In this document: piece by piece, positions 1 through 21,243 of the stretch
Layout: each line of letters opens with the position of its first letter
Numbering within the stretch: position 1 is the first letter of the stretch
Virus record (IMG/VR): IMGVR_UViG_3300020198_000097
Span: 1-24,464 of that record
Length of the DNA stretch: 24,464 nt
Strand: one strand, 5' to 3'
From: a virus
Position numbers and translations under genes: made by a program
The notes under the pieces: model-generated
What the model was told of the DNA's origin: nothing
The model's database searches: none
The model's input: the letters and a program-made list of their open reading frames with translations, nothing else

Positions 1-3000
1 TGGCAAGTGCTGCTCCCTGTGCCTTAGTGTTTTGAGTAGATTCAAGCTGTGCTACAGAAAACTCTCTAATTGCCTTTTCATTAAAGGCTTTCTTAAGGTC
101 TTTGCCAGCATCTCCTAATATTACTTTTCCATTTTTTCCTATTGTTATAAATTTTGCTCTAGTCTCTTTATCCATCTCTTCAAGTGCTGAGATAAATTCT
201 CTGTTAAATCCACCCATACCCCCCTTACCAATACCAGTAAGAAGTTGCTGTGTTATGCCTTTGAATCTGGTAATTCCTTTGCCCTTAGTAATTTTGTCTA
301 ATTCTGGAATTCCGCCCGTTTCATTAATTCTTGCGTCTGCAATAAATTTTAGTCTTCTTAGAAGATTATCAGTTGGTTGAGCCTTTCTTCCACCACCAGT
401 TTCACCTCCTCCTGGAACATTCTTTGACGAAACAAGTTCTCCGTTAGGACCGATGTATGTAAATGTTTCTTTTGCTGCCTGCTCCTTTGCGCTTTTAGCC
501 ATCGCTCCGGTTATATACTGAGCAGCGCCTCTTCCCCGTAACCCCATTTTTTGCGCCTTATCCTTAAAATAAGCACGTCTTGATTCTTCGTCTGCAAATA
601 TTGTTTGATAAAGGGTTGTAAATTTAGAAACAGCTTCTTTTTGTGCTATATCTGGTAGTGCATCAAAATCTTTCCATTGGCTCATTAATAGTTCTAAATT
701 TTCTTGTGATGTTCCTTTAATACCAGCACCAGGACCTTCTTTACCTTCTTCTGTTGAAAAAAATCTAAGTATAGAATCTTTAGTTATTGGAGACGGTAAT
801 TCTTCTATTGTTGCTAAATCTGCAGCAAGCTTCTTTAACCCTTCTTCTCCTATTCCTTTAAAATCTCCCTCAAGGCTACCGAAGATAACAGTCTCTATAT
901 TAAGTTCTTTGCCACTAAGCGCCTGCAAGGTAGCAATTGCTTCTCCGACTTCTGTAAATTGTTTTGGATCACCCTTAATAAACGATACCGCCATTTTCAT
1001 TGCTTTTTCTTTATTATTCTCAAAGCCCGCAAACATGTCTAAGAATGCAACTGTTTCTGCTGCACCCTGTTTCTTAAATCCAATATCAAGCGTTGTTGCT
1101 AGTGCTGGCAATTTACCAGCAAACATTTCCATAAGAACATTGTTTTGTTCTGGATTTATAACTTTATTTGCTAACAAGAAATTCATTCTAACTTCAAAAT
1201 CTTGTGCTTCTACTTGTGATTTAAAACCAGATTTACCAAATTCACGGCGATCACTTAGTTTAGACAGTCTTGCTTGTGCATCTTTTGCCATACTTGAAAA
1301 CTGTGTACCAGCATATACATCTGTAACTTGCTGTTTTAAAGAATCAAAATAGGCAGCCTCTCTTTTTGCCGCCGCTTCGTTTTGGCCCAAAAGACCAACA
1401 TTAAAAGAACTCTTATTGGTTTGAACAAGCTTAAACCTTTTCATTTCTGTATTTAGCTGATTAGTCACAAGCGCATTCATTTTTGTCATGTCGGTACGCA
1501 TGTCACCTTGAAGTTTAGAAATTTTTTCTCTAATCTCTTCTTGTTTTTGCAAATTGTTGGTTTGTTGCATTTCTTTTTCTAGCAGCTGTATTTGTTTTTC
1601 ATAATGAAATTGAGTTGCATCTGCTTGAGCAAGTGCTGTTTGTAAATTATTAGATGAAAAAGCTGCTAGTTTTGCAGCGTCTTTTAGATAACCTGAATTC
1701 CTTAGATTCACTGGTGGTTTGTTATCAAATACTAGAGCTTCTGATCGCTGACTTGCTTCTTCTACAATTTTTGCTCTAATTGTTAATGGATCTTTAAGTA
1801 AATCTTCACCATTAAAACCAATTAGAGAATCAAGTTCGCCTTTAATTCCAAACGTATATCTTTGACTGCCAAACTCAACTCCAATTTGTTCTGCAATACT
1901 GCTTGCTTGTGCAGCAGTTAGAACTCCATCTGATATATATGCAGCTAACTGAAGAGCAAAATCTTTTGCTGCCTGCTCAGAACCAAACTGTTTCATATTG
2001 TCTGCAAAACCAGTTGCCATTTTCTTACCGATATCTGATTCTAAAAATGTATCTCCAAATTGTGTTCCTGCTCTTTGCACATCATTGTATGCACCAAAAA
2101 TACCGCCTTCTCTCATCATTCGCATTGCTTTTGATGAACTTGTCGTACCAGCAATTTCAGAAACCTGACTCATCTTGTCAGTTGTTGCAGACGTAGCCTT
2201 TACAAACTCAGATTGGCCTTTTACCATATCTTTAAATTTTTTATTTATTAGAAAAATTGATGTACCTAAAGCAAGAACTCCCGCAACTACAGCACCAATA
2301 GGATTCATTAACAAGGGGAGAAGTCCAGCAATAGCAGAAATACCAAATAGCATGTTGGTTATTTTTTGATCAGCCCCGCTCATTGCAGCAACCATAGCTG
2401 CTGTTCCTGCTGCCATAGCTACTGGTCCAGAGAAAGTTGACGCTCTCTGTATTCTTTCCATTCGAGCAGCTTTTGGATCTACGGCGGGAGCAACAGTAGG
2501 AGCCTTTACAAATCTTCCAGTAGTAGGATCTCTGGGCTGTGCTTTTGCTCTATCGGCGAACTCTTGTCTTTGAGATTTTGTTAAATCTCTGCTAGATTGC
2601 GTTTGTTTGCCTTGTTCTTTTGTGTTTTCTTTTCTTGCTTTTGTTTCTTTTTCAGTTGCCTTAATTGCTTCCCTACTTACTCTTGTTTGTTTTGCAATTT
2701 CTGGAGTAGTGAGTCCTGGTGTCTTAATTGATGATGTTGCACCACCGCCAGCGCCACCCTCTGCTGTTGCTCCAAGCGGTAGAATCATTTGACCCCTTTT
2801 CATTAACAAAGCTTTAAAGTGATTTAGCCTTTGTTCAGGTGGCATACTTGCTTTGTCTTGTGCTGTTAGCGGAACTCTTTGAGGTGGTATCTGTCTTCCA
2901 GTCTCAGCATCTCTAACTTTTTGTCCTGCCTTTACGGCAACCTTAGTTTCAGGTTCAGGTGCAGGAGTTAAACCAACTCTTTGTCTTGCCTTGGTTATGG

Positions 3001-6000
3001 TTTGTTCTGATTTAGTCAGATTTCTATATCCACCAAATCTTTCAGAACCTTTAGCACGTATTAAATCTATACTTAAACGTCCGCCTTTTTTACCCAAGTT
3101 AAGTCCAGTATAGCTTGCTGTTTTTTGCCCTGGCTCAAATATTTCGATACCTAGCAATCTTCCATCTGGACCACTATAAATTTTTACAGTTGGTTGAACT
3201 CCAAAGCTTGCCATATTCTTAAGCATTTTTTTAGAAAATACATCTCTGCTAAGCTGTTTACCTAAAAGCCTGTTTGCTTCATCAAAAGGAATTCCTGCTC
3301 CTCTTCTCATAGGAACACCATTCGTTTTTAAAAATTCTTGTATTTGTTTTGGTCTAGGTTTTTGAAATACATCCACTCCTGCTATTGTTTTTACTATGTC
3401 AGAATATGCCGGATTAGAAAGCAGGGGCTTTGTAATATTTTTATTTAACATATCATCATTTACAAAATTAACACCGCTTCTTTGAAGCCTTTCAAGCTCT
3501 TTTATGTAATCATTTCTAAACTGTTCCATAATTAAAATTGGTCTATTGCCTTGAGCAATAAGAGAATTAGAATAATTTTTTTGTAAAGAATTTGCGCTTG
3601 TTCTAATAGATCCTGGCTGCTTTATTTCGTCTATTAAACTTTGAATTGGTACTCCTGTTTTAAGAGCTGAGTTCATTTTTGCATCAATATCAAAACCAAG
3701 AGATGTATATCCATTTATTAAAGTAGATCCCATTCCAGCTTTTTGATATGCTTTAAGATCATCTAGGGCACTTCCACGAAATAGACCAGATTTAATTAAG
3801 TCGTTTACGGTTTTTGGATGAGGATCTCCAGTCATATGGGCAAATGCAATTGCCGAATTTGATTGTCTTCTTGGTTCGCTTCCTGCTCCTGTTGTTCCAG
3901 TTTGATATTTGGCAATTTCACCAGATACAAGTGCTGCAATTAATGGTTTAAATCTATCATCTTGTGCTATTGGCTCTGGGATAACTGCTTCACCAGGAGT
4001 TAGCATTGCAGGTACGGAGTCAGTTCCTTTTGCATACCCTGGAACTTTCATTGTTCCAGAAGCTAATTTCTTTGGAATTCTTCCAGCGCCAGGAATCATC
4101 ATTCCAGGATTTGCTACTGCAAATCTTGCTGCTGCTGCGGTTGCTTGTACGTAGGCATTACGAAGTTGATTTACCGCTGTAGCTTCGACATTAAATTGTT
4201 GCGTTAGCTTTGAGTGTGCTTGATTTAAAGAAGAGGCAACAATTGCTGCTTCCATTTGTTCAGTGCTTAAATATGAAGTTTGCTGTGCAAGATTTGTACT
4301 ATTTCCAGATAATTTTAAAAATCCTTGTCTCATCATCAAAAACAGTTTAATTATATTTGCTGCTCCGTTAGCAACTAATCCAAAAGTCATTAACAAGGCT
4401 GGTCCAACTAATCCAACCAATGTAGTTAAAACTACTATAAACTTTTTTGTTCCATCACTTAAATTTCCAAATTTTTCAAACAAATTTCCCAAAAACTTTG
4501 CAACTGGTGTGATTGCCTTTAAGAATTCTTTACCTATTGGAGCAATTGAAACTTTTAATTCTTCAATTGCTTCCCTGAAGTCTGTTGCTACAGAATCTTC
4601 TATTCTTCCTAATTCTCGTTCTGACAAGATTGCAAGCTCTTCAACAGATTTTCCTGCTAAATCTAAAACTCTTGCTGCCTGGTTTCCATCTTTTGTAACA
4701 TTCTCAAACAAAGCAGACAAGCGAGCAAACTGAAACTTTCCAAACAATTGTTCAATTGCTCTTGCTCTTTCAAGTGGAGCCAGCGTATCTAAGGCATTTG
4801 CAAAATCTATAACTGTATTTCTTAAATTTCCAAAATTTCCTTCAACAATTGCTTTTATATTAATTCCCATATCTGCAAGCATTCCTGCTGCTTTATCTGT
4901 AGGATTAATTAATGAGGCAAGACCAGACTTGAGTGCGTTAGCACCCTCTGATGCATTGATTCCTCCCTCTCTCATTGCTGTTAAGAAGAAGGCCAGGTCT
5001 TCTACACTACCGCCAAGTTGTTTTATAACTGGACCAGCTTTTGGAACAGCAATCGTTAAGTCTTCAATTGCTGTTACGGTTTGGTTTTCAACAGCGTTTA
5101 AGAAATTAATTTTTCCCGCTAATTCTTCTGAAGCAAGACCAAAGGCATTTGTTAAAGATATGGTTGTTGTTAGTGCCTGTTCTTGCTCAACTCCACCAAG
5201 AACTGACAATCGTGTTGCTGAAGCGACCTGTGCTGTTAGATCTGCTCCAGTCTTGCCCATGGCAGCAGCAGAAGCAGCCATTTCCATAGTCTTGCTAACC
5301 GCAACGCCATATTTAGTAAATTGTCTAGCAAGAGCCTCTATGTCTGCTAAAGCCTTGTTTGTTTCGCCTGTGGTTGTAAACATGTCTCCATAAACACGAC
5401 GAAACCTAATGGCCTGTTTTTCAATATCCATAAATGTTTTGGCAGCTGCTGCACCAAAATATGCAAGAGGCACTGTAAAACCAACCATCAACTGGCGGCC
5501 AGCCCACTGTGTATTTTTACCAAAGTTTAATAGATTGGTAGATCCTTGTTTAAGTAACTGATTTAATATTGCTTGTTTTTGTGCTGCTACGGCTACCTGA
5601 TTGCCGTAATCTTTCATATTTAATGTTGCTGGAGTTATAGAGATCGCTCTCATTGCACCAGATGCATCACGACCCATCTTCACATATTGAGTCTGCATTT
5701 TCTTAACACGTTCTTCGGCTACCTTGCCAATCGTGTTAAATTCTGATTTAAATAGTCTTCCAAATGTTCTTGTTGATCCAGCAGCAAAACGGAAATACTC
5801 ACGCATTGAGAGTTTGTTTTTCTCCAGTGCGTGAGTAAATGATTCCGTACTTGTACGAATTGTGCCCATCTGGGCGTAGAACTTACCACCAGCATTGATG
5901 GCGTTCATGAAGTTGGTAGCAAGACCCTTTTGGGCTGCCGCGGCTGCGGCACTACCTCTGTTTATACTTGTATAAAGTTGTGCTAATTGACGCTGAAGAT

Positions 6001-6067
6001 TTTTGATCTCCGCCAAAGATTGTGACGTATCTATATTTATGCCAATATTAGCATTTACGTCAGCCAC
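1..6067 (-). CDS. Tape measure protein, 3' end cut by window edge
   Basis: This reading frame starts at GTG (6067-6065) and stays open to the left edge, giving at least 2022 codons; the true C-terminus is outside the window. The start follows an AGAGGTG ribosome binding site six bases upstream. Tape measure proteins set tail length and fill the tail tube. Residues about 225-430 resemble the TP901-type phage tail tape measure core (PhageMin_Tail), containing LTTTISLTNAFG and GINASEGANALKSGL. A hydrophobic stretch follows at about 541-575. A GTDSVPAMLTPGEAVIP motif lies near residues 680-697; such motifs are common in tape measure proteins. Residues about 700-1025 form a region I do not recognise, then a Lys/Glu-rich segment (about 1130-1160), a second hydrophobic Ala/Gly-rich segment (about 1209-1275) and a probable coiled coil (about 1487-1540). 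It lies directly after the two tail chaperone genes, the standard position. Confidence 0.93.
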   Translation of the reverse strand, partial: MADVNANIGINIDTSQSLAEIKNLQRQLAQLYTSINRGSAAAAAAQKGLATNFMNAINAGGKFYAQMGTIRTSTESFTHALEKNKLSMREYFRFAAGSTRTFGRLFKSEFNTIGKVAEERVKKMQTQYVKMGRDASGAMRAISITPATLNMKDYGNQVAVAAQKQAILNQLLKQGSTNLLNFGKNTQWAGRQLMVGFTVPLAYFGAAAAKTFMDIEKQAIRFRRVYGDMFTTTGETNKALADIEALARQFTKYGVAVSKTMEMAASAAAMGKTGADLTAQVASATRLSVLGGVEQEQALTTTISLTNAFGLASEELAGKINFLNAVENQTVTAIEDLTIAVPKAGPVIKQLGGSVEDLAFFLTAMREGGINASEGANALKSGLASLINPTDKAAGMLADMGINIKAIVEGNFGNLRNTVIDFANALDTLAPLERARAIEQLFGKFQFARLSALFENVTKDGNQAARVLDLAGKSVEELAILSERELGRIEDSVATDFREAIEELKVSIAPIGKEFLKAITPVAKFLGNLFEKFGNLSDGTKKFIVVLTTLVGLVGPALLMTFGLVANGAANIIKLFLMMRQGFLKLSGNSTNLAQQTSYLSTEQMEAAIVASSLNQAHSKLTQQFNVEATAVNQLRNAYVQATAAAARFAVANPGMMIPGAGRIPKKLASGTMKVPGYAKGTDSVPAMLTPGEAVIPEPIAQDDRFKPLIAALVSGEIAKYQTGTTGAGSEPRRQSNSAIAFAHMTGDPHPKTVNDLIKSGLFRGSALDDLKAYQKAGMGSTLINGYTSLGFDIDAKMNSALKTGVPIQSLIDEIKQPGSIRTSANSLQKNYSNSLIAQGNRPILIMEQFRNDYIKELERLQRSGVNFVNDDMLNKNITKPLLSNPAYSDIVKTIAGVDVFQKPRPKQIQEFLKTNGVPMRRGAGIPFDEANRLLGKQLSRDVFSKKMLKNMASFGVQPTVKIYSGPDGRLLGIEIFEPGQKTASYTGLNLGKKGGRLSIDLIRAKGSERFGGYRNLTKSEQTITKARQRVGLTPAPEPETKVAVKAGQKVRDAETGRQIPPQRVPLTAQDKASMPPEQRLNHFKALLMKRGQMILPLGATAEGGAGGGATSSIKTPGLTTPEIAKQTRVSREAIKATEKETKARKENTKEQGKQTQSSRDLTKSQRQEFADRAKAQPRDPTTGRFVKAPTVAPAVDPKAARMERIQRASTFSGPVAMAAGTAAMVAAMSGADQKITNMLFGISAIAGLLPLLMNPIGAVVAGVLALGTSIFLINKKFKDMVKGQSEFVKATSATTDKMSQVSEIAGTTSSSKAMRMMREGGIFGAYNDVQRAGTQFGDTFLESDIGKKMATGFADNMKQFGSEQAAKDFALQLAAYISDGVLTAAQASSIAEQIGVEFGSQRYTFGIKGELDSLIGFNGEDLLKDPLTIRAKIVEEASQRSEALVFDNKPPVNLRNSGYLKDAAKLAAFSSNNLQTALAQADATQFHYEKQIQLLEKEMQQTNNLQKQEEIREKISKLQGDMRTDMTKMNALVTNQLNTEMKRFKLVQTNKSSFNVGLLGQNEAAAKREAAYFDSLKQQVTDVYAGTQFSSMAKDAQARLSKLSDRREFGKSGFKSQVEAQDFEVRMNFLLANKVINPEQNNVLMEMFAGKLPALATTLDIGFKKQGAAETVAFLDMFAGFENNKEKAMKMAVSFIKGDPKQFTEVGEAIATLQALSGKELNIETVIFGSLEGDFKGIGEEGLKKLAADLATIEELPSPITKDSILRFFSTEEGKEGPGAGIKGTSQENLELLMSQWKDFDALPDIAQKEAVSKFTTLYQTIFADEESRRAYFKDKAQKMGLRGRGAAQYITGAMAKSAKEQAAKETFTYIGPNGELVSSKNVPGGGETGGGRKAQPTDNLLRRLKFIADARINETGGIPELDKITKGKGITRFKGITQQLLTGIGKGGMGGFNREFISALEEMDKETRAKFITIGKNGKVILGDAGKDLKKAFNEKAIREFSVAQLESTQNTKAQGAALA

Positions 6068-6086: not shown

Positions 6087-6416
6087 TTAATTGTTTGCAA
6101 GCACTGTGTTCAGTAGAGCATTTGCATCTTGGAGTTTAACCCCCGAAGCAGCCTCGACAATCTTATAAACTGTTGGAAGGTCTAGAACTTCCTCTAGTTT
6201 CTTAACATCTGCCAACTCTGGGTTGTACTGCTTCATAGCAATTTCTACACATTGGACAAGAAGAGTCATTGACTTATCGTTATCCTCTGCCACCTCTGCC
6301 ACTTTTTCAAACTTGCTCATAAAGGGACGAAGCAGTGAGATTTTTAAAGGTCTGACTGCAATTTTCGTACCATCCATAAGAGTAAGTTCTTGGCTCTCAT
6401 ACGTTGTTGTTGCCAT
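6087..6416 (-). CDS. Short tail assembly chaperone (G-like paralogue)
   Basis: A 109-residue protein between the long chaperone and the tape measure gene. It aligns over its first ~95 residues with the N-terminal domain of the upstream gene, roughly 40% identical by eye: both begin MAT, both carry DGT, PLKI, LR.FM, MKQY, LEE and DLPTVYK followed by AA.G.K. By family knowledge such proteins (lambda gpG-like) coat the tape measure protein during tail assembly. It lacks the C-terminal T-like domain. Translation starts at ATG after a strong AGGAGG site, and an extended -10 promoter lies about 25 bases upstream of the start, so it is probably made in excess of the long form. I see no need for frameshifting, because the long form is already encoded as one frame. 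Confidence 0.85.
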   Translation of the reverse strand: MATTTYESQELTLMDGTKIAVRPLKISLLRPFMSKFEKVAEVAEDNDKSMTLLVQCVEIAMKQYNPELADVKKLEEVLDLPTVYKIVEAASGVKLQDANALLNTVLANN

Positions 6417-6441
6417 TTATCCTCCTATATAGGCTAATGTA

Positions 6442-6450
6442 ATTATAGCA
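6442..6450 (-). promoter_or_regulatory. Extended -10 promoter for the short tail chaperone
   Basis: The minus strand reads TGCTATAAT in the gap between the two chaperone genes. No convincing -35 is visible. The expected transcript would have a leader of roughly 18 bases carrying the strong AGGAGG site. The motif matches those in the other gene junctions of the window. Confidence 0.6.
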
Positions 6451-6469
6451 TGAAGCCTCTATTTTTATA

Positions 6470-7204
6470 TTACGATTTTATTAATGAAGGATCTCTCTGG
6501 TCTTCATAATCTAGACCCATGCCGATACCAAACCCTGCCTTTTGAGCAGATGGACCCTGTAATGCAAGAACATCATTTGCGTCTGTTGCCTTGCCACGAC
6601 TAAATACTCTTGCTTTAAGGTCTTCCCATTCTTGCTGCCCTCGCTGTTTTCCATCAGAACCTTTTCGATTAGCATCCAGGTCAACGCCCTGTATTGCTGC
6701 TAAAAATTTCTTTTCTTCATAGTCAAGTTCTCGTTTGCTAGACAATGTGGCAATTAGCTCTGTCATAGATAAAGACTCTTCTAGTTCCTGATAGTCTTTC
6801 CAAATGCCGAGCAAAAATGCTTCAGATTCAAGTTTTGCAAGGTCCAAAGAATCCCAGTTGGCCCCACTGTCTGTTGCTTGATCTTTAACTGGCTTCTCTA
6901 TTTTTCTGTCTACCTTAATTCCAGCGGCAGCATCTAAAACTTTATATACTGTGGGAAGGTCTATATTCTCTTCTAGTTCTGATATTGTTTTTGAAATGGA
7001 TGGATAGTACTGCTTCATGCATATTCTGGCACATTCTGATAAAACAAGAATTGCCTCTTGATCATTTTTTGTTACTTTGAGGGCTTGAAATGTATCCATG
7101 AATTCTCTTAGATACTTTATTTTTAATGGAACCAGTTCTATTTCTGTTCCATCAATTAAATTTGCTTTTTGTATTTTATATATTTCAGTAGCCATCTTAT
7201 CCAT
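6470..7204 (-). CDS. Long tail assembly chaperone (G and T domains fused in frame)
   Basis: A 244-residue protein. Residues ~4-100 are homologous to the following 109-residue gene (G-like). After a linker (~100-118) comes a T-like domain at ~119-180 with LESEAFLLGIWKDYQELE, SLSMTEL and KKFLAAIQGVDLD, features typical of the C-terminal part of phage GT chaperones. In lambda-like phages that part is reached only by a ribosomal frameshift; here it is in the same frame. The probable role is to bind the tape measure protein and recruit tail tube subunits. ATG at 7204 opens the frame, but the paralogue begins MAT, so the ATG three codons in (7195) is a good alternative. Neither start has a clear Shine-Dalgarno, and a terminator-like hairpin lies just upstream, suggesting low expression. 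Confidence 0.85.
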   Translation of the reverse strand: MDKMATEIYKIQKANLIDGTEIELVPLKIKYLREFMDTFQALKVTKNDQEAILVLSECARICMKQYYPSISKTISELEENIDLPTVYKVLDAAAGIKVDRKIEKPVKDQATDSGANWDSLDLAKLESEAFLLGIWKDYQELEESLSMTELIATLSSKRELDYEEKKFLAAIQGVDLDANRKGSDGKQRGQQEWEDLKARVFSRGKATDANDVLALQGPSAQKAGFGIGMGLDYEDQRDPSLIKS

Positions 7205-7210
7205 TTTACC

Positions 7211-7247
7211 ACAAACAACAAACCCACCCCCCTACTTGGGGAGTGGG
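7211..7247 (-). terminator. Terminator-like hairpin after the major tail protein gene
   Basis: On the minus strand a 10-bp stem (7247-7238 with 7232-7223, one G-U pair) with loop AAGTA is followed by the T-rich TTTGTTGTTTGT. It lies between the major tail protein stop and the long chaperone start. It would limit read-through from the abundant tail tube message into the chaperones and tape measure. The T-tract is interrupted by Gs, so termination may be partial. Confidence 0.65.
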
Positions 7248-7270: not shown

Positions 7271-7924
7271 TTATGATGCGGTATGAGTACGATCTACGAT
7301 CTTACCGTATGCACCAGAGGCATCCTCTGGAAGCAAACGGAATGAAACTTCAAACATCGAAGGCTCATCGCGTTTTGCAGATACTGTTACGCTCTCAATT
7401 GAAAGTGCACGATATCCGACATAAACACGTTCTATATTCGTAGAATTAGCGCAATCTCCAGTGCCTGGACCGACAGCGCAGATTGCTCGCTCAACTGGAC
7501 ACTCACCGAGTTCGCCTGCTGAAAGATTCAGACGACGACCCGCTGAAGTGGACTTCGTACCAGAGAGTTCATCTTCGCTCATTGCAAGAGCAAAGACTAG
7601 ATTCTCAAGAGTTGCCTCAGCGAATGCTGTAGCAACATTTACCTGCATACCTTGCTTGTATAGCTTAGCAACATCTAGGACTTGATCTACTGCAACCTCA
7701 CCGAAGTCAGGAGCAAATGTCATCTCAAGGCCATTCATGGTGTAACCAACGTTATTCCAATCAGGATCTGCCATCAGAGAACTCTTGTAAGACTCTGTGG
7801 CAACAAAGGGAACTCCCGTTCCTCCTGCTGTAAAAACGTTAGCATCCTGTGTGGTATCGCAGAGAAAGAACGCTGCGGCACCAACTATGATGTTGGTCGA
7901 TGTACCACGGGTATATGCTGGCAT
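7271..7924 (-). CDS. Major tail (tube) protein
   Basis: A 217-residue protein located directly before the two tail chaperones and the tape measure gene, the usual site of the tail tube subunit. The sequence is beta-rich and soluble with no membrane segment; MTFAPDFGEVAVDQV, LENLVFALAMSED and the SFRLLPEDASGAYGKI ending look like phage tube proteins, although I assign it mainly by context and character. The start ATG follows a strong AGAGGTGA site. The gene has a 67-base upstream gap with a TATAAT box and a hairpin terminator after it, consistent with a separately and strongly expressed product. Confidence 0.82.
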   Translation of the reverse strand: MPAYTRGTSTNIIVGAAAFFLCDTTQDANVFTAGGTGVPFVATESYKSSLMADPDWNNVGYTMNGLEMTFAPDFGEVAVDQVLDVAKLYKQGMQVNVATAFAEATLENLVFALAMSEDELSGTKSTSAGRRLNLSAGELGECPVERAICAVGPGTGDCANSTNIERVYVGYRALSIESVTVSAKRDEPSMFEVSFRLLPEDASGAYGKIVDRTHTAS

Positions 7925-12800: not shown

Positions 12801-13550
12801 AGAATTATTCTCCTTTGTAATCTTAATTGTCCTAATGCCTTTTGCACTATCAACTAAGAACTTTAGCATTTCAATATTGTCATCTCCTCTTTCAACGAAT
12901 CCAATGTTTTGCATTGAAACGTCGCAAGTAGGGCAAGACTCCTTATCTTCTGGAGATAGGCGAACAATGTCGTCTTGCTTACACCAGTACACCGTGTCAA
13001 CAACTGCTTGTGCAAGATACCCGCCAAGCTCTCCCTTTTCAATTGAAAGAACGTTGGCGAATTCATTTGCTGGGTTATCAACAAGTGATAGTTCAGTTAA
13101 ATTATACTCCTTAATTATACGTATTTGACGCTTTACCTCTTCGTCAAACTCATCATCGGATTTTGTGATATTTCCTCCGATTGAGAATCCTGTCAGCGTA
13201 CCATCAAGAATCTTTTCCCAGGTATTTTGTGCACCCTTTGACACATAGGCTGAGACATAAACACCACTATAAAACTTCTTTGTTTGTGGATCAAAGTAAC
13301 GATCTTCCTTAAAAGATACGACCTTGCCAACAGCACTTGGCTGATGCATTTCACGAATATTTCCTCTAAATTTCTTAAAGGCGTTCATGCTGGCCTCTGT
13401 TGTTACAATGTCATTTTGCCTATCCACATTATCTAGAGTTGCAAAACCAGAAACAATACGGCGTTCTTGATCAATTTTGCCAATAGGCATAGAAAAGCGA
13501 ACACTGTCGCCCTCTGTTGTCCATTGAGCCTTATTCATAATCATTGTCAT
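12255..13550 (-). CDS. Prohead protease (S78-like) fused to a C-terminal scaffold domain
   Basis: A 431-residue protein between portal and capsid genes. Residues ~15-170 match the HK97-type prohead protease pattern: VSGFATLDNVDRQNDIV, REMHQP with the likely catalytic His69, LTGFSIGG with the likely nucleophile Ser123, and LTELSLVDNPAN with acidic residues Glu153/Asp158. Residues ~187-220 carry an insertion with Cys190, Cys206 and Cys209 (CPTC). After residue 250 comes an Ala/Glu-rich low-complexity stretch and a long coiled-coil-like region (~315-395), typical of scaffold. ATG at 13550 opens the frame without a Shine-Dalgarno; a promoter -10 hexamer ends only 3 bases before it, so the ATG at residue 3 (13544) is a more likely, leaderless start. 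Confidence 0.9.
   Translation of the reverse strand: MTMIMNKAQWTTEGDSVRFSMPIGKIDQERRIVSGFATLDNVDRQNDIVTTEASMNAFKKFRGNIREMHQPSAVGKVVSFKEDRYFDPQTKKFYSGVYVSAYVSKGAQNTWEKILDGTLTGFSIGGNITKSDDEFDEEVKRQIRIIKEYNLTELSLVDNPANEFANVLSIEKGELGGYLAQAVVDTVYWCKQDDIVRLSPEDKESCPTCDVSMQNIGFVERGDDNIEMLKFLVDSAKGIRTIKITKENNSMAEETEVAAEAPAEAALVVEDVEVAPEATEQVIAEAEAVVEEAAAETAIAKTDEVAPSTEEVVENKMDAVADIAKNVTDIQESLTNALSDLAGTVKSLQETVAAITKSLEDVTGKIKSVSTDVDQVKGSFDEFGKRVEAVEADTAFRKSGDLGEIVQEFSEMKAQKSLWGGRFLKTADLFN
12810..12816 (-). promoter_or_regulatory. Internal ribosome binding site for the nested scaffold
   Basis: AAAGGAG on the minus strand, nine bases before the in-frame ATG at 12800. It is stronger than the signal at the protease start itself, which lacks a recognisable Shine-Dalgarno. 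It coincides with the end of the protease domain and the start of the Ala/Glu-rich scaffold part. Confidence 0.7.
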
Positions 13551-19212: not shown

Positions 19213-21243
19213 TTAGGCTATTTTAATCTCACAAATATCTGTAGTGCAGAATTTTTCCCCTACCGCCTCAAGATTGTCAACACCGTCATAAATTGGAGAC
19301 CAGTCGATTTTTTTAATTTTGCCTATATAAGACTCATATTCTTGCTTTGTAATCTCCGTATAAGGTTGTTGTGGGTAGGTGGCATTTCCTATGGGTAAGA
19401 AAGACACGGCCTTTAACTGACCCTCATACATATGAAGTGCTGCAGCAATATACTTAGTTTCTGACTTTTTGTCAAATGAAAGAGTTACAGATACTCCATT
19501 ATCGGACCAATATTTTTGCGTGGTAGCAGCAAGACCAATTTTTTCAAATAATGAAACATCCTTTTCAGAACGAGAATGGCCAGAGTGTACAGGGAAATAC
19601 ACAATAGTTGTATTGGCAGATACTAGATCTTTTTCCATCTTATATCCCGCTGCTTTAAATAAATGAATCATCGAGTCTGTATCGCCAAATCTTATAGCAC
19701 GAAGAAAATAGTTTCCTCCTGGTCCCCAATGAACGCCTGGAGTTGCACCAGACAGCAGGGAGACTGAGCCAGATGGCTTAACGGTTGTTACACGAACAGA
19801 TTCACGAACACATAGCCACTCAGAATATGCATGATCATATTTACGAATTGTTTTGTATCCCTCATCCATCCATTCACGAACGGTGGGCAGTCCGTTCTCG
19901 TCAGAGAATGATGCAATCCCAGTTAACGATGTTCCAATACGACGATTGCGCTGCATAATTCCGTTTGTAATCTGCCAATGTGTTGGAATAAGAGTTACGG
20001 TCTTGCCATACAAGTATGCAAACTTAAGTGTGCGTAAAAAATCTTCTTTGTCTACGTGTCTATTTAGATGTACCTCCACAAGAGTGCACAGCTCTTGACT
20101 CTCAAGTGGCTGCTCAGCACAAGGATTAAATCCCATAACACGATAATCTTTGCCATCTGCAGGATCTGCAAGACGACCAAAATTACGAGCAATATCTAGC
20201 CAGACAAAACCTGGTTCACCATTGTTAGCAATTAAATCTACATAATCCTCATATTGTGTTCCTACTTCTGCTGCAATAGAGTTATTGCTCATCCATGCCC
20301 ACCCTGGATTTTCTGGATTATACGAGTTGCGTTCTGCAAAGATTTCTGGATTTTTTAGATTCATAAAGTCTTTATCTGTTGGTCCACCAAGAGCAAGAGT
20401 TGCAGAACGACGAACGTTTCCAGCAACCACACATGTTCCAATAAGATTAACAATGTCTACAATTGCACGAGAGTCTAATTTTTCTCCAGCTCTATCACCA
20501 ATAACTTTATGAATTGTCTTGTGCAGTTTTATAAGTGGTTCTGGGCCCGAGGCGGTACCACCAAACCCCTTGATAGGAGAACCCAGAGGCCTAATCTTAG
20601 AATAATCAAATATTACCTTTGCCTGATTTATCTTTAAATACGAGTTAAGAATAATTCTTATGGATTCTACCCACCCCTCACGAGTATCTGGAATCTCATA
20701 TTGTATTTCTTCATCGGAATTTGAATAAATATCAAGCCCCTTATCTTGACCCAAAGTATCAAACCCTACACCTACACCTAACATCAAGGCATCCATTACC
20801 CAAGCGAATAATGCACCTGGATCATTACGGTCAATGTCTCTTGTTGATACCATCGCACAATTCTGCAGGGCAGCAGAGTTCTTGCGCTCCATGGTCATGG
20901 GAGTGCCAAACGCCCATAGGCCACGGCCAGGAGGGGTCCATTTAAGGCCAAACATGCGCTCATAGGCCTCTTGAGCAGACTTTTGTGCTTTATTGTCATT
21001 CCATGGCAAACGGTTCTCTTTGGCGTGATTCTTCTGTATTGAATACATTCCCTCAATTACCCTCTTGCAAACCTCATACCAGCGTTCTTTACAACCATCT
21101 TCTTTTATCCTGGAATAGGTACGAATAAATGTTATTTCACCTAACGAATTACTACCCGCATCTCCAAAGCCAAAAGGAGGCTCAATTTCTTTATACTTAT
21201 TTACAAACTCATCCAATAGACGAAAAGAAAATATGTCAGACAT
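19213..21243 (-). CDS. nrdJ: Class II (adenosylcobalamin-dependent) ribonucleotide reductase, monomeric type
   Basis: A 676-residue protein similar in layout to the monomeric Lactobacillus leichmannii reductase (family length ~739). It reduces ribonucleotides to deoxyribonucleotides, using coenzyme B12 to make the thiyl radical. Visible residues: Cys129 (ALQNCAMVST) and Cys386 (SQELCTLVEV) as the redox pair, the NPCAE active site with Cys375 and Glu377, the RNR signature VKPSGSVSLLSGATPGVHWG at 488-507, and a C-terminal CTTDIC (Cys666, Cys671) that would relay electrons to the active site. All key cysteines are present, so it appears functional. No separate radical-generating subunit is needed in this class. 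It has its own promoter and leader and lies between tail-fibre genes and the LamG gene; it would supply dNTPs for phage DNA. The ATG has only a distant GGAAAGG site. Confidence 0.95.
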   Translation of the reverse strand: MSDIFSFRLLDEFVNKYKEIEPPFGFGDAGSNSLGEITFIRTYSRIKEDGCKERWYEVCKRVIEGMYSIQKNHAKENRLPWNDNKAQKSAQEAYERMFGLKWTPPGRGLWAFGTPMTMERKNSAALQNCAMVSTRDIDRNDPGALFAWVMDALMLGVGVGFDTLGQDKGLDIYSNSDEEIQYEIPDTREGWVESIRIILNSYLKINQAKVIFDYSKIRPLGSPIKGFGGTASGPEPLIKLHKTIHKVIGDRAGEKLDSRAIVDIVNLIGTCVVAGNVRRSATLALGGPTDKDFMNLKNPEIFAERNSYNPENPGWAWMSNNSIAAEVGTQYEDYVDLIANNGEPGFVWLDIARNFGRLADPADGKDYRVMGFNPCAEQPLESQELCTLVEVHLNRHVDKEDFLRTLKFAYLYGKTVTLIPTHWQITNGIMQRNRRIGTSLTGIASFSDENGLPTVREWMDEGYKTIRKYDHAYSEWLCVRESVRVTTVKPSGSVSLLSGATPGVHWGPGGNYFLRAIRFGDTDSMIHLFKAAGYKMEKDLVSANTTIVYFPVHSGHSRSEKDVSLFEKIGLAATTQKYWSDNGVSVTLSFDKKSETKYIAAALHMYEGQLKAVSFLPIGNATYPQQPYTEITKQEYESYIGKIKKIDWSPIYDGVDNLEAVGEKFCTTDICEIKIA

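Follow-up and report, generated by a model that had tools for sequence, protein, structure and literature searches.

Two genes in probable replacement of programmed frameshifting for the tail assembly chaperones of a phage clade

The tail assembly chaperone genes described here lie on a 24.5-kb virus record, IMG/VR IMGVR_UViG_3300020198_000097, the whole of which (positions 1 to 24,464; 24,464 nucleotides) forms the window that was analysed. The minus strand of this record carries a head and tail module consisting of portal, protease, capsid and connector genes, a major tail protein gene, a long chaperone gene (GT), a shorter chaperone gene (short G) and the tape measure gene; the features of the tail region located below are all on that strand. 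GT (6470..7195) encodes 241 amino acids with a G domain in residues 1-97 (6905..7195) and a T domain at 6473..6868, and short G (6087..6416) encodes 109 amino acids and is a paralogue of the G domain. A first-pass annotation of this sequence had proposed a G and GT pair in which gene duplication replaced frameshifting, with a long form of 244 residues. Its description of G and T in one uninterrupted frame stands and its length does not: the frame is also open from an ATG at 7204, which was rejected as the start because it overlaps a conserved promoter element (7203-7211), and the conserved start of the family, MAT at 7195, gives 241 residues. Both genes are flanked by those for the major tail protein and the tape measure, an order repeated in the annotated relatives. 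The upstream neighbour (7271..7924) matches phrog_2175 (E 1e-33), its syntenic counterparts in relatives are annotated as major tail protein, and this tail tube protein is the presumed partner of the T domain. The downstream neighbour (2..6067) has a GTG start 19 nt downstream of short G and runs off the window as an open frame of at least 2022 amino acids; relatives carry a tape measure annotation at this position, and the tape measure protein is the presumed client of both chaperones.

When the long protein was used as a query on the window, the short gene was returned as the second match (residues 4-99, 44% identity, E 1.3e-22), which bears out the earlier view that both reading frames exist and that the shorter encodes a G-like homologue of the N-terminal part of the longer; chance is excluded as the source of this likeness. 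Both proteins match phrog_10504 (E 1e-17 for the long and 5e-22 for the short protein), the match in GT falling in its G domain, and the C-terminal part of the long protein matches phrog_10474 and aligns with the T that Streptomyces and Rhodococcus phages encode in the -1 frame. Structure comparison, suggested with the original proposal, was carried out on AlphaFold2 models of both proteins, and the N-terminal elements coincide: E9-12, E18-21, H26-41, H45/46-63/64, H71-77 and H80-91 are shared in the same order. GT consists of the domain of the short form plus an extra C-terminal domain.

The best PDB matches of short G are chaperones, namely YqbN (3KLU, Z 5.7) and the HK97 protein (2OB9, Z 4.5), both of which are named as phage tail assembly chaperones in PMC9603447, although these Z scores are modest. 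A comparison of the whole GT model with the PDB (VIA-align) gave only low-Z matches with no chaperone among them, and the fold argument therefore rests on short G; the T part had no identification by fold and was identified by its sequence relatives. Chaperones also lead in a Foldseek fold test against viral models, with the GT of N15 among them (E 0.02). A Pfam search gave no chaperone family for GT or short G, weak matches below the cut-off (DUF4778 on GT and Arc on short G) were disregarded, and no match to PF12322 was found for either protein at E values up to 1. Sequence relatives annotated as tail assembly chaperone were found in 127-130 Streptomyces and Rhodococcus phage records. From the modest Z scores, the gene order and these annotated relatives, assignment of the pair as tail assembly chaperones is secure.

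The first-pass annotation had also suggested searching for the pair, and for slippery sites, across phage genomes. We classed 349 related loci, drawn from IMG/VR, phage records and one genome contig, by profile searches; some loci share a contig, and the distinct sequences number 151 fused open reading frames (ORFs) and 98 unfused regions. Fused GT with a second G accounts for 236 loci, G followed by T for 109, and the other four, of which three are GT and one is G, are truncated by the end of a contig. The classes are sharply separated, as the second G is present in 236/236 complete fused loci and a single G in 109/109 unfused loci, with no mixed state among the complete loci: fusion always occurs with a second G and a single G always with a frameshift. 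A T-like frame linked to the short gene, named beforehand as an observation that would count against the proposal, was sought, and none follows short G in any fused locus. Contigs of metagenomic viruses can be chimeric, and an artefact of assembly or annotation might on that ground be considered; this explanation, to which we attach practically no weight, is refuted by the number of loci with this layout (236, with 151 distinct GT ORFs), which come from many independent samples.

The closest cultured relatives of the locus are Streptomyces phages of the Stanwilliamsviridae and a few Rhodococcus phages, in which G is a single gene followed by T in another frame, the two being annotated as a join in four records. 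With the short protein as query, a single place per genome was matched in 127/127 cultured records with matches. A scan of genome contigs added one relative, a frameshifter (CAINGU010000031.1) in a metagenome bin labelled as a cyanobacterium, which is probably a binned phage contig and not evidence of a host. In the Rhodococcus phages Francesca and Trina we observed a longer G (about 160-165 amino acids) with the slip site GGGAAAA, in which an insert in the middle of the protein splits the profile match in two.

T occupies the -1 frame in each of the 109 unfused loci, with a slip heptamer at the point where its frame opens. The heptamers are CCCAAAC or CCCAAAT, GGGAAAC or GGGAAAA, AAATTTG and, in one Streptomyces group, the imperfect CCCGGAA; CCCAAAC/T or GGGAAAC is the heptamer in the closest kin of the fused loci. 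The G genes of these frameshifters show synonymous constraint that begins at the slip codons and extends through the rest of the gene, the pattern expected for overlapping frames, and so provide a positive control. The same test detected no raised synonymous constraint at the fused junction. An apparently constrained 9-codon window (residues 108-111) in the first version of the test disappeared once six-fold codon families were split. Slip heptamers or runs of A do occur at some fused junctions and might suggest that GT still produces a short form by recoding, through a hidden slip or slippage during transcription, with the second gene as an extra. However, the heptamers are not enriched (22/151 ORFs, where the rate over whole ORFs predicts about 21%) and the A runs are of 6 or fewer in 147/151 ORFs; on these counts and the absence of constraint residual recoding in GT was rejected, and we consider such an explanation very improbable.

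A trace of the former site may persist in short G. Its codons GAT GCA AAT (6120..6128) align with GAC CCA AAC of a frameshifting relative (L245) and are, from this alignment, a probable mutated slip site; the heptamer looks to have been mutated away with its tail retained. All parts of both genes are under purifying selection, with ratios of nonsynonymous to synonymous substitution rates (dN/dS) of 0.12-0.19. The G part of GT (hereafter GTn) evolves faster than short G, with a mean identity of 0.59 versus 0.72 and a dN/dS of 0.19 versus 0.13.

The start signals of the two genes are opposite in character. Promoter motifs are reported here as consensus matches. Between the tail protein gene and GT is a hairpin resembling an intrinsic terminator (7223..7247; 10-bp stem, 5-nt loop and T-rich tail), and a hairpin of this kind precedes GT in 123/132 distinct fused upstream sequences and in none of the shuffled ones. 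An extended -10 element, TGG-TAAAAT (7203..7211), follows 7 nt before the ATG, from which a leaderless start is predicted. Among fused relatives, the -10 hexamer ends 5-9 nt before the ATG in 120/125 (15% in shuffles) and has the extended form in 119/123; it is mostly TAGAAT, TAAAAT or TATACT and less often TATAAT. No Shine-Dalgarno sequence was detected at GT (median -2.8 kcal/mol, background -2.2), and the transcript is probably leaderless. Short G has an extended -10 element, TGC-TATAAT (6442..6450), 25 nt before its ATG and a Shine-Dalgarno sequence, AGGAGG (6421..6426), with a duplex energy of -10.2 kcal/mol. The Shine-Dalgarno of short G is stronger than that of GT in 150/150 relatives, and a perfect TGnTATAAT lies 23-38 nt upstream of short G in 116/116 distinct fused sequences (8.2 in shuffles). 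This layout is that of ancestral G genes. Because the signals of the two genes are opposite, the G:GT ratio is probably set at initiation, and they point to an excess of the short form.

These signals, together with the rates of change, bear on whether the two proteins still form one chaperone system. Divergence of GTn and short G to 44% identity and the faster change of GTn could mean that short G has taken on a different job, for example in chaperoning a different part of the tape measure, and that GT supplies both isoforms, perhaps by proteolysis. Such a division seems to us improbable: of the two copies short G has changed less, lies nearest to the ancestral G and keeps the ancestral start signals, and the weaker signals of GT are unsuited to an abundant form.

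Several further features were seen around the start sites. A palindrome, CCTATATAGG, at 6421-6436 overlaps the Shine-Dalgarno region of short G (CCTATATAGGAGG) and recurs ahead of this gene in many fused relatives; it might tune short G, either by folding into a small hairpin or as a binding site for a protein. In one relative (L148) a methyltransferase-like ORF is inserted in a 781-nt gap between GT and short G, and both genes are open with their start signals kept, among them the promoter and the ribosome-binding site upstream of short G, an arrangement that fits independent expression of the two genes. Elsewhere in the window, TATAAT occurs just before the start codons of genes at 13550, 11025 and 19185 (3, 15 and 17 nt, respectively), so that individual promoters that leave very short leaders may be a general feature of genes in this phage group.

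The direction of evolutionary change was examined with trees of the separate domains. A T-domain tree was rooted on the Rhodococcus phages and their kin; in it the fused loci form one clade (support of 89 in the Shimodaira–Hasegawa-like approximate likelihood ratio test, SH-aLRT) within the unfused loci; because the fused clade is nested inside frameshifters, recoding was probably ancestral and lost once. Multiple origins of the fusion were considered from a tail-protein tree that needed three changes, and rejected, as its branches are weak and the denser, rooted T tree needs one. In that tail-protein tree a very long branch (length 1.53) unites the fused loci with their nearest frameshifting relatives, as though replacement or rapid change of the tail tube protein had preceded the GT fusion.

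Taking the locus, the survey and the T tree together, the locus very probably yields two chaperone isoforms from two genes instead of by programmed frameshifting. The ancestor probably had one G ORF with a -1 slip site into T, a state kept in cultured phages of Streptomyces and Rhodococcus as well as in many virus contigs of aquatic origin. The pair would have arisen by duplication of G (or of G-T), with fusion of the first copy to T and loss of T from the second copy; the slip site is gone from the fused gene. A weaker, leaderless start would then make GT rare, and a strong promoter and ribosome site would make short G abundant; short G in excess would coat the tape measure protein, and the T domain of the rare GT would recruit the tail tube protein. 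A ratio that once came from slip efficiency would now come from transcription and translation initiation. On balance we favour a single event that, in a large group of uncultured phages, moved control of the ratio from slippage to expression, in which GT was fused, a separate G was kept or regained, the slip site was erased and the G domains specialised.

Three points weigh against this account. The promoter elements are matches to a consensus. Leaderless initiation can be efficient in some actinobacteria, and for this reason the direction of the ratio is something that we infer. The third point comes from the G-domain tree, whose construction had been proposed at the outset. In a careful version of this tree GTn and short G each form one clade (97/96 and 98/95) and short G is nested among the G of the closest frameshifters (99/97), whereas GTn falls outside short G and these close relatives, unlike the pattern of a simple recent duplication. 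This topology is what would be expected if two genes did replace the frameshift but the second G came by recombination from a single-G relative and was placed beside an already fused and diverged GT. We regard such uptake as rather unlikely. The T domain belongs to the same ORF as GTn and is placed with those same close relatives, so that the outside position of GTn may reflect its faster change; a tree constrained to hold GTn and short G as one clade is worse by 23 log units and is not rejected (approximately unbiased (AU) test, p 0.07); and a fused locus lacking the second G was not seen among those surveyed. Since GTn is the faster copy and short G is nested in frameshifter G, short G is, judged from these sequences, the copy that has conserved the character of the old G, and it is GTn that has changed. 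With respect to the original proposal, replacement of recoding is supported by the complete separation of the two classes, the nested clade and the fused junction; the second G may have come by duplication or, less probably, by uptake, and may or may not be sister to GTn.

If replacement by two genes is true, frameshifting is one replaceable way to set a chaperone ratio, and two G domains that no longer share one sequence have specialised. A replacement beside frameshifting kin also allows the purpose of the frameshift to be asked, namely whether it serves the ratio itself or something that only co-translational production can provide, and offers a clear case in which duplication resolves two products formerly made from one gene. 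For annotators, two chaperone genes need not imply a missed frameshift.

One further observation concerns a region of the window away from the chaperones. A 676-amino-acid protein, ribonucleotide reductase-like by eye, is encoded at 19213-21243, on the strand of the structural genes and just upstream of them.

The locus can be compared with several known systems. Phages of the Stanwilliamsviridae (Coruscant, Samisti12, Karimac, Gilson, BillNye and others) and the Rhodococcus phages Trina and Francesca have homologous G and T in the same position but differ in having a single G and a T reached by -1 frameshift, with no fused ORF and no second G. The pair resembles gpG/gpGT of lambda (PMC5009743), where a short form (G) and a long form (G+T) are likewise encoded next to the tape measure gene, although lambda uses frameshifting at a slip site and the present locus has an uninterrupted frame and two genes, each with start signals of its own. 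For the lambda products a molar ratio of 30:1 is reported and described as crucial to tail assembly, and the G-T frameshift is reported to be widely conserved among long-tailed phages (PMC5009743). HK97 gp13 has a chaperone fold in common with short G, at low Z. The likeness to gp26/gp51 of T4 lies in having the two forms encoded by separate paralogues, of which the longer is extended at the C terminus; the T4 genes, both of PF12322, differ in being divergently oriented where those described here are in tandem, and their family is unrelated by sequence. The title of Vladimirov 2022, as cited in PMC12859696 and PMC12846349, refers to T4-like tail chaperones produced by a mechanism other than frameshifting. 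In several cluster EA subclusters of Microbacterium phages there are two chaperone ORFs without an evident frameshift, and the passage reporting them describes no fused GT with a duplicated G (PMC7302621). The open-licence literature that we searched contained no description of a fused GT with a second G. Chaperones without frameshifting are already known, with gp26/gp51 as the paralogous precedent; the T4 side of this comparison covers that pair of genes. What appears to be new is replacement within a clade that has frameshifting close kin, the strict association of the fusion with a second G and with slip-site loss, and the switch in start signals.
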